Assembly: GCA_020845475.1 (NCBI GenBank)
Contig: JADLFN010000039.1
Coordinates: 1-64,000, forward strand
DNA: 64,000 bases
Reading direction: 5' to 3'
Source of the DNA: Planctomycetota bacterium
GTDB lineage: Bacteria > Planctomycetota > UBA8742 > UBA2392
Position 1 is the first letter of the stretch; the number at the start of each line of letters is the position of its first letter. The notes under the pieces are model-generated. The model did not search any database. It saw only the letters and a program-made list of their open reading frames with translations, and was not told where the DNA came from. Shown piece after piece: positions 3,991 through 61,520 of the stretch. The position numbers and the translations under genes were made by a program.

Positions 3991-4092
3991 CGGCCCGAAT
4001 GGGCCGCCAGCCGTGGGGGCGAGAGATGGAGTGTTTGAGAGATCGAGAGATGGCAAAGGCCATCTCTCCAACGCTCAATCTCTCCATCTCTC
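3991..4092. repeat. Hairpin plus second GAGAGATGG inverted repeat
   Basis: 3991-4006 is CGGCCC-GAAT-GGGCCG. 4021-4092 is an inverted repeat of two 34-nt arms around 4 nt, with the same GAGAGATGG word as 2665-2736. The left arms of the two copies are almost identical, while the right arms differ more, so the copies have diverged by word exchange rather than by simple point drift. Confidence 0.9.
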
Positions 4093-4103
4093 CGCCCCTG
4101 GGG

Positions 4104-14326: not shown

Positions 14327-14425
14327 GAGGTCAGAAGTAAGAAGTCAGAGGTCAGAGGTTCGCAAGCGATGTTCGCACCTTCTGACCTCTGACTTCTGAC
14401 CTCTGACTTCTGACCTCTGACTTCT
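14327..14425. repeat. Word-based inverted repeat (AGAGGTCAGA)
   Basis: Left arm of about 34 nt made of (A)GAGGTCAGAAGT words; right arm of about 49 nt made of TGACCTCTGACTTC words, its reverse complement; centre about 15 nt. The right arm carries extra word copies, so arm lengths differ. Ends 11 nt before the start of the aldehyde dehydrogenase gene. Confidence 0.9.
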
Positions 14426-15893: not shown

Positions 15894-15931
15894 GCTATCC
15901 GCAGATGACGCCGATGGACGCCGATAAAGAC
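15894..15931. repeat. ATCTGCG-type arm 1
   Basis: Reads GCTATCCGCAGATGACGC followed by CGATGGACGCCGATAAAG. It contains the ATG start of the GxxExxY gene (15905), so the first codons (MTPMDADKD) are encoded by the repeat. Confidence 0.85.
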
Positions 15932-16330
15932 ATTCCAGTCTCGGATCCTCAGACCCACGCGATCATCGGCGCGTGCATGGAAGTGCATCGGATTCTGGGG
16001 TTTGGCTTTTCTGAAACCGTCTATCAAGAAGCCGCAGCCCGGGAATTTGCTCTTCGCGGCATCCCATACCTTCGCGAGCCCGGACTGGAGATCGTGTATA
16101 AAGGTGAGCGCCTTGACACCGTCTTTCGCGCGGACTTTCTTTGCTTCGACGACATCATCGTCGAGTTCAAGGCATTGGCAAAACTCGGCGACAGTGAGTT
16201 GGCCCAGATTCTGAATGAACTCAAAGCGAGCAAGAAACGGCGCGGCTTGCTGATCAACTTCGGCGCACGGCGGCTCGAGTTCAAGCGTGTCGTGTGGAAA
16301 TGGGATGAACCAAAACCCCCATCTGCGTAA
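15905..16330 (+). CDS. GxxExxY protein (PD-(D/E)XK nuclease-like)
   Basis: 141 residues. The defining motif G34-F-S-E37-T-V-Y40 is followed by a PD-(D/E)XK-like core: D77 in FRADFLC and E87-F-K89 in IIVEFKA, as in family PDDEXK_3 (PF13366, TIGR04256). The C-terminal part (GLLINFGARRLEFKR) is also typical. The family is widespread and usually of unknown function; the fold suggests a nuclease. The start codon lies inside repeat arm 1 and the TAA stop inside repeat arm 2, so the gene and its flanking repeats seem to form one unit. The alternative start 9 nt later (MDADKD) is also inside the arm. Confidence 0.85.
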   Translation: MTPMDADKDIPVSDPQTHAIIGACMEVHRILGFGFSETVYQEAAAREFALRGIPYLREPGLEIVYKGERLDTVFRADFLCFDDIIVEFKALAKLGDSELAQILNELKASKKRRGLLINFGARRLEFKRVVWKWDEPKPPSA

Positions 16331-16404
16331 TCTGCGTCATCTGTGGATTGCCGTTTGCCGCAATACACGATCCGCAGATGACGCAGATTCCCGCAGATAG
16401 AGGC
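16320..16404. repeat. ATCTGCG-type arms 2 and 3 around a short centre
   Basis: CATCTGCGTAATCTGCGTC at 16320-16338 begins arm 2, which carries the stop codon of the upstream gene. GATCCGCAGATGACGCAGAT at 16369-16388 begins arm 3. The two are inverted around 16 nt. The word is ATCTGCG(T/A)(C/A). The geometry is the same as the other word-based inverted repeats of the window. Confidence 0.9.
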
Positions 16405-19475: not shown

Positions 19476-19523
19476 CGAAAAGGGGTCAGGCTCCGGGAAC
19501 TTCCGGTGCCTGACCCCTTTTCG
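19476..19523. repeat. Palindrome with AAAAGGGGTCAGGC stem
   Basis: Perfect 16-bp stem CGAAAAGGGGTCAGGC / GCCTGACCCCTTTTCG around a 16-nt centre. The stem word resembles palindromes found around REP-associated (Y1) transposases, but no transposase is in the window. Confidence 0.8.
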
Positions 19524-23006: not shown

Positions 23007-26000
23007 GATTCGGGCAGGCTGTCGATGATATCGAGCGTTTCCATGCTTACGCGGATGACCTGCTTCACTAGCCGCACGATGTATTGCGGGTCGTCTTCGC
23101 GGTTGGGATCAGAGCGGATGCCGGACTTTTTGTCTTCGCTGACCTGATATTGGTCGATCACCCAATCCAAAGCACTGCGGTTGCCGAGCCGGTATTCAAA
23201 GCAGCGCTCGGGAATGCCGCTGAGCGTGAGCCATTCGTTGACCGTGAGTGATTTCTTGTCTTTGGCCAGCCGCATTTTCTCGACGTGCCAGAGATCGCGG
23301 TTCTTGGCACCTTCCTTGATGCTTTCGGTCAGCGGCCAGGGCTCGGCCCTTTCGTAATCAAGGTGCAGCTTGGCGAGCTTTTCGCCTGCGGCTGCGAAGG
23401 CCTTGAAGTCCTGTAGGGGCGACGCATGCGTCGCCCGGCCTTTGCCTTTCTTCGCGGGCGACCCATGGGTCGCCCCTACGAAACCGGCGAACGGGATGCG
23501 GGGCAACTCGCGTTTGAGGCAGTCTTTGAACTTCTCGCGGTAGCCGCGATGGTGGAGCATGGCGTAGACGTAATAAAAAATGTCCCACTTGGAGATGGTC
23601 TTGTCGGCGTAGGCCTCACGGAAAGTCTTCAACGCCCAGTCCGTGATGTTCTCCCGCCGGTTCTTCCCGTCTTCGTCATAGACGTAGAACGGGAAGCATT
23701 GGTGGCCATCCAACGAAGCGCCAAGGTGCAGGTCGACCGGACAATTCCCGACCATTACGTTGTAGGTGTCGGCCCGATAACCAATGTCGCTCACACATAG
23801 GACTTGGTTGGCGGTGTCACGCACGTTCAAAGGGAAGAACGACGGAAACCTACCGCTCTCGTCCACGGCGATATCCGCCAAATACAGCCACTTCTCAGTA
23901 AACGGTCTGTACAACGCTCGACGGATGTGACCCCCGAAGTAATCCAGTTCCTTGTGCCTCTTGAGTGCGGACTTGAGATTTCGGCTCCATTTGACTTTTG
24001 AATAGTCGAGAAAGTCGTCCAAATCCTTGCCCTGCCCTTTGCGGTTAAATCGATCAAGTTCGGAATTGTAGGCGTCGGCGAACGCAGCCAATCTTTTATC
24101 CAGAGAGGTTCGGTCGAAGTCATAGACGACACTGTCGCGATTTGTCGAAACCCCATGAGAGTAGGTTGTGAAGATTGTTTCGGTCCGAGAAGCGCCAGCC
24201 TTGGCGGCCTTGGACGCAATGGAAGGAAACGTCCCAAAGTCGTCTTCATTCGCCGCAGCTAGCCAATTGCCGCGAAGGTCCGGGGCAATTGGTGTAAGAC
24301 TTGATTTGTAGATGTTGCCGATGCGCTTGATGAGGCTGAACTTTTCGAACCGCGTGGCACGCCAATCAACTTCGCTATAGAGAATTCGGTGTTTGGTATC
24401 TTTCTTTGACTTAATGAAGATGTTCACGGAGACGCCAACCATAGCTCCCAGACCAAACACCGTGTGCTCTTCACCAATTGGGATTCCTTCGCGCATCGAG
24501 TCCTTGCGCACGTTTCCCTTCAGGTCAAGTATCAATACCTTGCTGAAATCCTTGGCCAGATGCTTCCTCACGCCGTCAAAAGCTAGGCCGTCCACGAAGT
24601 AGTTGTTGCTGACAAACACAATTACACCCTCGTCGCCGATTCGATCACTTGCCCACCGGAAGAACCTGAGGTAGGGATCGTACAGCTTGCTGCGAAGGGT
24701 CGCTGAGGAGTCTTTGACGTATGTGGCTTGGATACGCGAATCAACTTGGGCGTAGCGACGGTTCTTGTTGTTGTCGTTTTCGCTCTCTTGTTGTGTCCGG
24801 TATGGCGGGTTACCAATGATAACCGTGATTGGAGCCTTGCGCTGTCGCTCTACGCGCTGAGCATTTTCCTTGGTCATGAACGACAGACCCTTCTGCTTGC
24901 TTTCCGCCAGTTCCAGCGTATCCACGAAGCACAGGCCCTCGAACGATTCGTACTCCTTTGTGCGCTCCCAATAAGCGTGCTCAATATTCAGCGCGGCTAT
25001 GTAGTAGGGCAGCAACAGAATCTCGTTGGCGAAGAGCTGGTGTTTATACACGCGCTCAAGATCGGCTCGCGGGATGCGCCGGATTAGATTGACGATGAAA
25101 TTGCCCGTGCCCGTGCAGGGGTCGAGGATGTTCACGTCTTTGCCGCCAAGTGTGGCGCCGAACTCTTTTTGCAGCACTTCATCAACGCTGGCGCACATGA
25201 AATCGACAATCGCCTGCGGCGTGTAAACGATCCCGTGCGTGTCCGCCACCTTCACCGAATAGTCTTGAAAAAAGCGCTCGTAAACGGTGTTTAATAACTC
25301 CTGCTTCTCCGAATAGTCGCCCATGTCCTCGGCCTGCGCTTCGATGGCCTTGTAGAAGTAATCGAGGCCCTTGAGGAATTTTGAGCGGTCAAACTCCTGC
25401 GCCTTGAGCGCGTCGATGACTTTTTCGACTTCGTTGGCGATCACGTTGCGCCGCGTGAAATCTTCCTGGTGGAACACCTTCCTGAAGATGCGCTCCGTGA
25501 GCAGGTGCTGCACCAGCATTTCATCGACGGTGCTTTGCGAGATCGAAGGATTCAGCGATGACTTGCAGAGTTCAAAGAAGTCGCCAAAGGCTTTCTTGAA
25601 GCCTGTGTTGTTGGCGTGCGCCTTCTTGAGTTCCTCCTGCAAGTGCTGGGCGAGCACCGGCACATCTTCACGGAATTTCGCTAACGCCTGTTTGAACGAC
25701 TGCTGGACGGGCTTCTCGTAGGCGAAGAACTGGTTGAGCAACAGGCAAAGCTCAGCCGGTTCGTAGAGGTTCTTCGTCTTGAGCTCGATGCCGTTCTGGT
25801 AGTGGATTGCCTGGTGCGTGTCCTCGAAGATGATGTTGTCGGTCGGGTAACCCTTTTCGATCTTCTTCTTTACTTCGATAGCCAGTTTGTCGTCGCCGTC
25901 CTTGGCTTCCCAGTGGCCCAGCGGCACGCCTTCATCGAGCAGCGTTCCATCGGGCACGACGCGCTTGCCATCGCGGTTGATCGGGCGTTCGGGCATGAAC

Positions 26001-26164: not shown

Positions 26165-26223
26165 TATACAGGGCGTGGCGACAAGGGGACACAACGGGGG
26201 CGGGCGCTTGCCTTCGCGGGCTT

Positions 26224-26332
26224 GTAGCGCCGGCATCCTGCCGGCTTCGGCGCGGGCATCTTGCCCGCGCCTTGGGCGGGCGCTGGAAGCTCCCGCCGAG
26301 GCCGCCGGGATGGCGGCGCTACGAACCGCAAC
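26224..26332. repeat. Composite palindromic element with GTAGCGCC ends
   Basis: Outer ends GTAGCGCC and GGCGCTAC are inverted. Inside lie three palindromes: GCCGGCATCCTGCCGGC, CGCGGGCATCTTGCCCGCG and a GGGCGGG...CCCGCC stem. Lies between the restriction-methylation gene and the LOG gene. GTAGCGCCAGC at 49559 looks like a partial relative. Confidence 0.85.
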
Positions 26333-50781: not shown

Positions 50782-50868
50782 GGCGCGCGGATGGACAGGA
50801 TTGGCAGGATTCAGATGATTCGCCAACGCAAATAGCCTTATCCTGCCTATCCTGTACATCCTTGCGCC
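50782..50868. repeat. Word-based inverted repeat (CAGGATNNN)
   Basis: 29-nt arms 50782-50810 and 50840-50868, differing at 4 of 29 positions; centre 29 nt. The word is ACAGGATNGGCAGGAT, shared with 59331-59423. Fills the tgt-gdh gap; the gdh ATG starts 24 nt after it. Confidence 0.92.
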
Positions 50869-58202: not shown

Positions 58203-58289
58203 GGTTGGTGGCTGGTGGCTGGTGGTTGGTGGTTGGGGAGTGGAGCCGTTTGCCCCAGCCACAAACCACCAGTCACCGACCACCATCAA
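58203..58289. repeat. Word-based inverted repeat (TGGTGGNTGG)
   Basis: Left arm GGTTGGTGGCTGGTGGCTGG... and right arm ...CACCAGTCACCGACCACCAT pair around a central GAGTGGAGCCGTTTG. The arms reach from the start of the oxidase gene to inside the HAD gene's stop codon (TGA in TTGATGG). Confidence 0.9.
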
Positions 58290-59025: not shown

Positions 59026-59093
59026 GATTGTCGATTGTCGATTGTCGCTTGTCGATTGGGTACAGTGCGGTAGTTCAATCGACAATCGAAAAT
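59026..59093. repeat. Word-based inverted repeat (TCGATTG)
   Basis: ATTGTCGATTGTCGATTGTC on the left and CAATCGACAATCG on the right, about 20 nt paired around GGGTACAGTGCGGTAGT. The left arm has four word copies and the right two. Confidence 0.88.
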
Positions 59094-59097
59094 TGCG

Positions 59098-59277
59098 TCA
59101 TCCCCAGACGCGCAGCAGCCAGAGCACGACGATCACGAGCAGCATCACGGCCGGAACGACAAGCGTCCAGATCAGGAACTGCTGGTTCTCGCGGCGGCGT
59201 TCTTCGTTTGGATCGACGCTCTTGGAGCGCGTTTCGAGCGACTGGCCGATCTTCAGTTTGTGCTTTGATTTCGACAT
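59098..59277 (-). CDS. Small membrane protein (59 residues)
   Basis: MSKSKHKLKIGQSLETRSKS opens a basic, Arg/Glu-rich N-terminus (VDPNEERRRENQQF). A single strong membrane helix (WTLVVPAVMLLVIVVLWLL) then ends in RVWG. The ATG at 59277 lies in the gap between the HAD gene and the DUF4139 gene. Single-pass topology with an N-terminus-in bias. Not recognised; below the length cut of the usual gene calls. Confidence 0.6.
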   Translation of the reverse strand: MSKSKHKLKIGQSLETRSKSVDPNEERRRENQQFLIWTLVVPAVMLLVIVVLWLLRVWG

Positions 59278-59292
59278 GGCGCGAGCAGCCTA

Positions 59293-59449
59293 ACACGAAG
59301 GAGCGAAGGAGCGAAGAACGGTAAGGCAACGGCGCAGGGATCTACAGGATGGGCAGGATGAAAACATGGGCGCACTACAGATCTCTGTTTTTGAGTCCTG
59401 TAAATCCTGACCATCCCTGCGCCGTGTCTGTTCTTCGCTCCTTCGCGTT
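59293..59449. repeat. Nested inverted repeat (outer GAAGGAGC, inner CAGGATNNN)
   Basis: The outer arms ACACGAAGGAGCGAAGGAGC (59293) and the reverse at 59429-59449 enclose inner arms 59331-59358 and 59396-59423. The inner arms are 28 nt, with matching core GGCGCAGGGAT then CAGGAT units; differences fall in the 3-nt spacers. The inner word is the same as in 50782-50868. The outer right arm includes the stop codon of the DUF4139 gene. Confidence 0.92.
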
Positions 59450-61464
59450 CAAGCCTGAATTTTCTGCGCCGTGGTTTCGAACTTCTTGCGCAGCTCGGCG
59501 ATCTTCTTCTCGTTGGCCGCTTTGCGGTCGCGCAGCGTGGCCAGCTTGGTTTCGTCGCTGTCGAGCTGGCTGATGTAACGCTCGCGCAGCTCTTTCTCCT
59601 TGGGCGTGCCGCTGGAGGATAGCCGCGCCAGGTTGTCGCGCAGGCGCGAGTGATCCTGCGTGATGGAGGCAATGTCGCGGTCGATCTGGGCGTTGTCGCG
59701 AACGTGTTCGTTGATGCTTTTGGCGACTTCGAGCAGCGGTTCCAGCGCCTTGATGAGATCCTTCTTGCCGCCGGCGTTTACGACGAGCTTGAGGTAGTTC
59801 TCGATCTGCTCAGGCGCAATCCAGAGCGATTGCGTGTGCTGGCGGCGCTCGGTGATTTTGAACGCCAGTTGCTTGCCCGGCTCGCTTTCGACCACGAAGC
59901 GATCGAAAGTTTCGGTGCGCTCGGCGGGCTTGGCCGTGTCAACGTATTCGGCGCCGCGGTCGGCCGGGTGATCGATGTAGAGCTTCAACTTGCGCTTGGT
60001 CGCGTTCTTGATCGTGTAGGTGACAATGCGGCGCGACCACGTGGTGTGGTACAGGTAGCCGCTGCTCACGCGGACTTCCTGGCCGCTCTCGGTGCTGGAT
60101 TCAAACGCGGTCGTAATCTTGCAGCCCAACTCGACGGAAAACGGCACCAGCTTTTCTTCGCCCGGCCGCATGGTGTCGAGCATGGCTTCGCCGGAGTATT
60201 CGCCTTCGCGGAACACCGTGGCCGGGCCGCCTTCAAGCGTCAGGTTCGTCGAATTCTTGAGCTTGAAGCTGGTGAGCGGATTGCCCACGCGCACGCGCTC
60301 GTTGTAGACGGCCACGATTTCGCCGTCGAACTTGTCGCTGAGAATCGGCACGAGCGCGCTGTTGCCGCCCTTGATGCTCACGGGCGTGCTCACGTCATAG
60401 CTGAACATGTCGCCCAGTTCCTGCGTGCGCGTTGATACGTTCACGCTTTGCGCCATGTCGCCTGCGCGCATGGCAGGCGGCGCGGCTGGCGCGGGCATCG
60501 AAGCCAGGGCCATGCCGGAAGCCTCGGCCATGGAGCGACGCGCCTTCTTTGAGGGCGCGCGCTCCTTGGCGTACTCGTCTTCGTCAGCCAGTTCCTCAGA
60601 AATGTCTTCGCCAGCCTCCTGCTCAGGCATGTCAAACGTTGCGCCCTCGAGCACGGGCGGCGCGATGGGGGCTTCCGTTTCAACGCGCACGTGGGGCCGC
60701 GCGCGGCGGCGAGGTGAATACAGGTCGTGGGTGAACGAAATCGGCAGGCCGGAGACCAGCGAGAGCGCGACATCGTCCCAGTCATCCTGACTGTCGTTAT
60801 CCACCAGTGCAAAACCGAGCACCGTGGGCTTGCCCTTTTCATCAAACAGCACGCGATAGCTCGTCTTCCATACGGTTGCGGGCACGATGTAGGCCACGTT
60901 CACGTCGCGTTCCTTGGAGCCGCGCAAATCCAGCGTCACGCGCCGGCGCTCTGTGCGGCGCTGCGCATCCATGCGCGACAGCAGAATTGCGAGGTCGCGG
61001 CGCAATTGCGCATCGACGGGAGTGACGGTGCGGATATCGCCAATGCGCACGCGGCGCATGGCATCACCCACGACGAGGCTGAGATAGTCCACCTTGATCG
61101 CGACTTCGCCGCTGGATTCATCCACCTGCTCGATGCCCAGCACGCGGCCTTTGAGCTTCTCGCCGCTGTAATCGAGTTCGACTTCCGCGCCGATCAACTG
61201 GCCCAGCAGTTCGAGGATGCCGCCGCCCTCGGGCAGCCTGACCTTGATGTCATTGAGGCGCTCGCTCAGCGCCGGGTGCGGCTCATAGGAAACCGCCGCC
61301 AGTTGCCCGCCGCCGTGGTCCACGACGCTCAGCGATTTCAGCGCGTCGTCCATTTCATCGTGGCGAAACGAAAGCTCCAGCTTGGCATCGCCGCTGACCT
61401 TGGCGTGGCGCTCAAAACAGCCCATACCGTGCTTGTGCAGAACGACGCGAGTAATCTTTGACAT
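59449..61464 (-). CDS. DUF4139 domain protein
   Basis: 671 residues; ATG at 61464 (MSKITRVVLHKHGMGCFERH). N-terminal beta domain (HAKVSGDAKLELSFRHDEMD), coiled region (LRRDLAILLSRMDAQRRTER), then the DUF4139-type middle with VNVAYIVPATVWKTSYRVLF and DWDDVALSLVSGLPIS. A Pro/Ala/acidic linker leads to a C-terminal beta sandwich, and a final coiled coil (LEPLLEVAKSINEHVRDNAQ). No signal peptide. The family covers mucoidy-inhibitor-like proteins of unknown mechanism. The stop codon lies in a repeat arm. Confidence 0.82.
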   Translation of the reverse strand: MSKITRVVLHKHGMGCFERHAKVSGDAKLELSFRHDEMDDALKSLSVVDHGGGQLAAVSYEPHPALSERLNDIKVRLPEGGGILELLGQLIGAEVELDYSGEKLKGRVLGIEQVDESSGEVAIKVDYLSLVVGDAMRRVRIGDIRTVTPVDAQLRRDLAILLSRMDAQRRTERRRVTLDLRGSKERDVNVAYIVPATVWKTSYRVLFDEKGKPTVLGFALVDNDSQDDWDDVALSLVSGLPISFTHDLYSPRRRARPHVRVETEAPIAPPVLEGATFDMPEQEAGEDISEELADEDEYAKERAPSKKARRSMAEASGMALASMPAPAAPPAMRAGDMAQSVNVSTRTQELGDMFSYDVSTPVSIKGGNSALVPILSDKFDGEIVAVYNERVRVGNPLTSFKLKNSTNLTLEGGPATVFREGEYSGEAMLDTMRPGEEKLVPFSVELGCKITTAFESSTESGQEVRVSSGYLYHTTWSRRIVTYTIKNATKRKLKLYIDHPADRGAEYVDTAKPAERTETFDRFVVESEPGKQLAFKITERRQHTQSLWIAPEQIENYLKLVVNAGGKKDLIKALEPLLEVAKSINEHVRDNAQIDRDIASITQDHSRLRDNLARLSSSGTPKEKELRERYISQLDSDETKLATLRDRKAANEKKIAELRKKFETTAQKIQA

Positions 61465-61520
61465 AGTGCCCCCGAGGTTCCTGTGCCGTGATCCGAGCTT
61501 CTCGTTTCCGGCCGCCCCTA

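Follow-up and report, generated by a model that had tools for sequence, protein, structure and literature searches.

The window analysed here is a stretch of 64,000 nucleotides from a planctomycetotal contig. Near its end, an upstream gene on the minus strand (59449..61467; 672 amino acids to the last in-family start, weak DUF4139 similarity, stop codon at 59449-59451) is followed by a minus-strand gene of 59 amino acids (59098..59277), which is conserved in the congener G001. The 171-nt gap (59278-59448) between the stop of the upstream gene and the start of the 59 amino acid gene is filled by a nested inverted repeat at 59292-59449. Its left outer arm (59292..59319, plus strand, AACACGAAGGAGCGAAGGAGCGAAGAAC) carries three CGAAG words with a period of 8, and its right outer arm (59430..59449, minus strand, GTTCTTCGCTCCTTCGCGTT) carries two CGAAG words and reaches into the upstream gene's stop codon. 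A left connector (59320..59328), which is the start of the outer loop and is common to the solo outer element at C18, leads to the left inner arm (59329..59358, plus strand) with CAGGGAT/CAGGAT words of period 9. This arm pairs with the right inner arm (59396..59425, minus strand) across an apical loop (59359..59395) without a gene.

G001, the only congener in which the gap is readable, has just 16 nt between the orthologous genes and no element. Its comparison with the flanks gave no clear target-site duplication, at a divergence too high for certainty. At eight tested loci, an element-free or empty site was found in G001 and/or G002. The outer element alone was found at the gap 59278-59448 in no genome that we looked at. 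The location is not a 23S rRNA gene, as the nested element sits between two protein-coding genes.

The sequence-only reading had described nested inverted repeats with different words, and our analysis bears this out: outer CGAAG arms enclose inner CAGGAT arms and the pairing exceeds that of shuffled sequence. In the outer arms, 59303-59319 and 59430-59446 pair at 17 of 17 positions; exact 17-nt inverted repeats at most 130 nt apart occur four times in the window and not once in 30 shuffles. The inner arms are 80% complementary, an inverted score that was reached by 0 of 500 shuffles, and it is the CAGGGAT/CAGGAT words that agree between them while the 3-nt spacers mostly differ. Folded as RNA, the outer and inner stems stack as one hairpin with -82.3 kcal/mol (z = -8.4 versus shuffles). 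An Rfam search matched only a tRNA and nothing for the nested hairpin.

The inner word had also been reported alone at position 50782, and indeed a solo CAGGAT element lies at 50782..50866, where the matching gap is short and empty in both G001 and G002. The CAGGAT family is found solo at several further sites of the genome. The CGAAG word is not in excess elsewhere within the window; its solo copies are located elsewhere in the genome, at C38, C40, C49:106k, C59, C75 and C18, and their loops measure roughly 10 to 45 nt. The loop start after the left arm is nearly identical in the solo C18 copy (AACGGTAAAGG) and in the nested copy (AACGGTAAGG). At C40, congeners retain a degenerate trace of the CGAAG arm, so some CGAAG copies are not recent. 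The pattern ACGAAGGANCGAAGNANCGAAG is present in genomes G000, G004, G008 and G009 and absent from G001 and G002. Single forms therefore exist, and the outcome named beforehand as contradicting the nesting, a single unit that never occurs in single form, is not what we found.

Further nested cases, which the sequence-only reading had suggested looking for, number about a dozen in this genome, and several sites in two other genera show nesting too. In this genome, whole or partial CGAAG-type arms surround CAGGAT (C39, C15, C49:20k, C62) or CACGGAG (C16, C17, C33, C65), and CGAAG-type arms surround CAGAT at C58. CACGGAG arms in turn enclose CAGAT (C33, C42) or a heptamer element (C75), and C33 is three layers deep. 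Complete outer and inner pairs are found at C39, C16, C17 and C42; the remaining cases show only part of at least one layer and were called by eye. In the other genera, CGAAG arms enclose CACGAAT in G004 (L298) and either CAGGAT (L288, L294, L295) or CGCAGAG (L290) in G009. Among the nested cases, none had CAGGAT outside CGAAG. A rough estimate from hairpin density gives fewer than one nesting expected in the paired CGAAG loops. Since the nested sites were located by searching with the words themselves, they give no unbiased frequency of nesting. The genome was covered by loci, by pattern searches and by a 400 kb sample of stretches, and two 20 kb pieces of the 64 kb window served as queries. 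A junction match in G007 was rejected as a nested case, being a single site without paired words around it. In L025 (about 625-950), a nested element of two layers, the inner CACGGAG arms enclose an orphan ORF of some 108 amino acids; it has no family match above the cut-off, and G001 and G002 lack it at the corresponding site. The interior ORF of C16 likewise has no family match above the cut-off.

Outer arms of the CGAAG type are also found around genes. In the sister genus genome G004, an intact GxxExxY gene lies directly between CGAAGGA arms without an inner array (L286), with hisA-like and hisF-like genes on either side of the cassette, and in G009 a GxxExxY gene follows a left CGAAGGA arm and runs off the contig end (L287). 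Because these genes sit at such arms, we interpret the outer arms as the ends of a nuclease-gene cassette, and the solo hairpin is therefore best read as a cassette without its cargo. No GxxExxY remnant was detectable in the gene-less hairpins of this genome, and CAGGAT arms were not found around any full-length cassette there. No transposase was recognised beside the arms that we read. The cassette gene family matches PF13366 and TIGR04256. The residues D67, E77, K79 and Q91, corresponding to the nuclease D, E-x-K and Q residues, are invariant in 22 aligned sequences, and a fold search of the nuclease-like protein gave weak matches (best E-value 0.02).

In this genome we found 15 GxxExxY matches, one of which is a fragment at the end of a contig, and 9 matches to the four-helix 23S-IVP family. 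Nearly every copy is flanked by inverted tandem words whose sequence differs from copy to copy. As a control for the flanks we used 437 ORFs of the same genome (95th percentile 14, 99th percentile 17); the alternative comparison of arms with mismatched pairs is weak for IVP, as many copies share heptamers. The 99th percentile of the control was exceeded by 11 of 14 GxxExxY and 6 of 8 IVP genes in this genome, by 19 of 26 and 16 of 24, respectively, in relatives, and by 48 of 76 GxxExxY loci in public genomes that span many phyla. These public loci were gathered by protein similarity alone, in a scan with a 7-sequence alignment, without using the arms. Of two archaeal loci, L233 has clear arms and L269 has none.

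A few GxxExxY copies are without word arms and have altered catalytic positions, among them L118 and its probable relatives L074 and L075; in these three the change affects the E-x-K site, and they are apparently conserved across the genus and possibly domesticated. At L036 (545-1017), CGAAG arms flank a gene whose G001 homologue has no right arm, its left side being cut by the contig end. This fits a single-cassette insertion poorly, as the G001 homologue lacks the right arm; either the gene is a resident one with an element on each side, or it has acquired arms around it. Two CGAAG elements, at L038 (about 579-603) and at L041 (about 572-590), run into the end of the reading frame upstream of them, whose stop codon (AAG TAG, within the arm) they apparently provide.

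Several loci show arms with different contents. In the window, a GxxExxY cassette (15899..16346, plus strand) holds an intact gene at 15905-16327 between CAGAT-type arms. At site 15953 the gene is whole in the window, G001 has the arms with a 44-codon remnant, and G002 has the arms with other content. Directly after this cassette comes a second, gene-less hairpin of the same word (15899-16398 together), the right arm being common to both. An IVP cassette with GAGAGATG arms is present in G001 (L151), and the same arms occur without a gene at 2664-2737 and 4018-4096 of the window and at several loci of G001 and G002, some of which are apparently orthologous between these two genomes. The decay stages at 15953 and the GAGAGATG arms with and without the IVP gene indicate that arms outlast their cargo. 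The two arms agree at a rate of 0.92-0.95 in word positions and of 0.67-0.76 in spacer positions, a contrast that partly follows from how word positions are defined. Selection on the word could account for the likeness of the arms, and so could homogenisation through slippage and template switching in hairpins, a process known for quasipalindromes. A split of the hairpins into coding and non-coding ones was dropped, because word arrays themselves create long open frames.

We have high confidence that the structure at 59292-59449 consists of two stacked members of a word-armed class, the outer one being a cassette remnant. Our preferred explanation, to which we give a probability of roughly 70%, is that such hairpins are gene-less cassette remnants and that the inner element entered the interior of the outer cassette, whose cargo was then lost. 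The outer CGAAG family would be a cassette whose members in sister genera have kept a GxxExxY (PD-(D/E)XK nuclease-like) gene flanked by matching arms. An independent CAGGAT element of the same general kind would have entered its dispensable interior, with the outer gene already gone or still present, and loss of the cargo would have left two stacked stems. Later elements would be found in cassette interiors because these are presumably dispensable DNA in a gene-dense genome. The inner element probably arrived second. It may itself be a cassette remnant, and gene-less hairpins such as this one look like deletion remnants. We infer that the GxxExxY nuclease may take part in mobility. We see an even chance that all of this belongs to one little-noticed class of mobile cassettes that occurs in many bacterial phyla and in at least one archaeon and nests repeatedly. 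Its members would carry one small nuclease or four-helix protein and no recognised transposase, and their ends would follow a grammar instead of a fixed sequence: a short word, repeated with loose spacers, stands inverted on the opposite side and differs by copy.

Insertion into a pre-existing loop predicts separate forms, varied inner words and a near-identical loop start, and all three were observed. The proposal that one element formed in the loop of another thus holds as regards the separate existence of the two, the varied fillings and the loop start in common with solo C18. It needs amending in two respects: the loop is a former cassette interior, as L286 indicates, and not a mere hairpin loop, and after nesting the composite can spread as a unit, because in G009 (C53; L294, L295) the whole CGAAG-with-CAGGAT composite is present in tandem copies. 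These tandem copies, together with the occurrence of CGAAG-with-CAGGAT at four loci here and connectors of 6-7 nt on four of five sides, are also what one would expect if the outer and inner words belonged to one mobile unit inserted as a whole. We consider this improbable, as each word is solo many times, the same outer arms enclose other inner words and the gene-bearing outer cassette L286 has no inner array. Slightly less probable still is that layers were added from outside, with outer arms forming around an older inner element and the outermost being the youngest. The better pairing of the outer than of the inner arms (17/17 against 80%) and the CGAAG arms around a resident gene at L036 agree with such an order, but in L286 a gene cassette ends directly in CGAAG arms, the presence of an inner element makes no difference to the outer loop start, and the outer and inner arms of C16 are about equal in their pairing.

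We think it very unlikely that the hairpin is primarily a host RNA structure (a terminator, processing or stability element) selected for a long stem with the words as by-product. The very stable fold (z = -8.4) and the position between co-directional genes would suit it; yet the structure is absent between the same gene pair in G001, has no Rfam match, and its words are common to gene-bearing cassettes and unrelated sites. Use of the nested hairpin as RNA after insertion is a separate matter and may occur. Chance or an assembly artefact is hardly credible: the genome is a draft of 94 contigs, but 51 word-array pairs were counted over 464 kb versus 2 in shuffled sequence, and the same word families recur in separately assembled relatives.

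Small gene-less inverted-repeat elements and their nesting are of a known kind. Like bacterial MITEs and nested MITEs, the elements described here are short, gene-less, multi-copy and intergenic with inverted ends, have longer gene-bearing relatives with the same ends (L286 and L287 for the outer arms, L151 for GAGAGATG) and show presence and absence between relatives at the same site. Unlike in MITEs, the ends are arrays of repeated words with loose spacers, the word varying from copy to copy within a genome, and neither a transposase nor a target duplication was identified. The nearest described relatives are the 23S rRNA IVS elements with an S23/IVP ORF (e.g. in Coxiella), which have been described as selfish elements (PMC4990558). 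In both, one small four-helix-protein gene lies between long inverted ends; theirs are in 23S rRNA, whereas here protein genes flank the cassettes, many of which have a nuclease-like gene instead. REP palindromes with RAYT transposases bear a GTAG or CGTC tag at one palindrome end (PMC3733652), and by this definition the arms of the nested element have neither tag. REPs are abundant intergenic palindromes too, and insertion of IS1397 into them is a precedent for a second mobile element entering a palindrome (PMC1525189), but here the arms are tandem words and no linked tyrosine transposase was seen. Intergenic 7-nt tandem words are also known from the heptamer repeats of cyanobacteria (STRR) and from the TAACTGA repeats of Beggiatoaceae, the latter almost entirely direct repeats without a linked gene (PMC4679880), in contrast to the arrays here, which form inverted pairs with a gene or a gene remnant in between. 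A literature search, mostly of non-subscription papers, found no account in which GxxExxY genes or intergenic IVP genes belong to mobile cassettes with word arms.

These results offer a concrete origin for very common intergenic hairpins, which are usually left unannotated, and link word hairpins to two orphan gene families, GxxExxY and 23S-IVP. Nested arms could serve as a relative clock, the layers possibly recording which family came first. They also raise the question of how an element moves when its ends share a pattern and not a sequence.

Other hairpins were noted in the window. Gene-less word hairpins are located at 14327-14417, 58206-58285 and 59027-59093, with the words GAAGTCA, GGTGGCT and GATTGTC; including the GAGAGATG ones, the gene-less word hairpins of the window are mostly of the period-7 kind seen around IVP genes. 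Three structures have no tandem words: a REP-like, GTAG-tagged GTAGGGGCGACGCATGCGTCGCCCG palindrome (23413-23479), an imperfect palindrome of 53 nt (26219-26327) and a AAAAGGGGTCAGGCTCC inverted repeat (19476-19523). AACGGC and GCAGTT, which a six-mer count pointed to, and CAACTG look enriched in loops and flanks near arms in this genome, and GAACGGCAA-like strings often come after the last word, in both cases with small counts.
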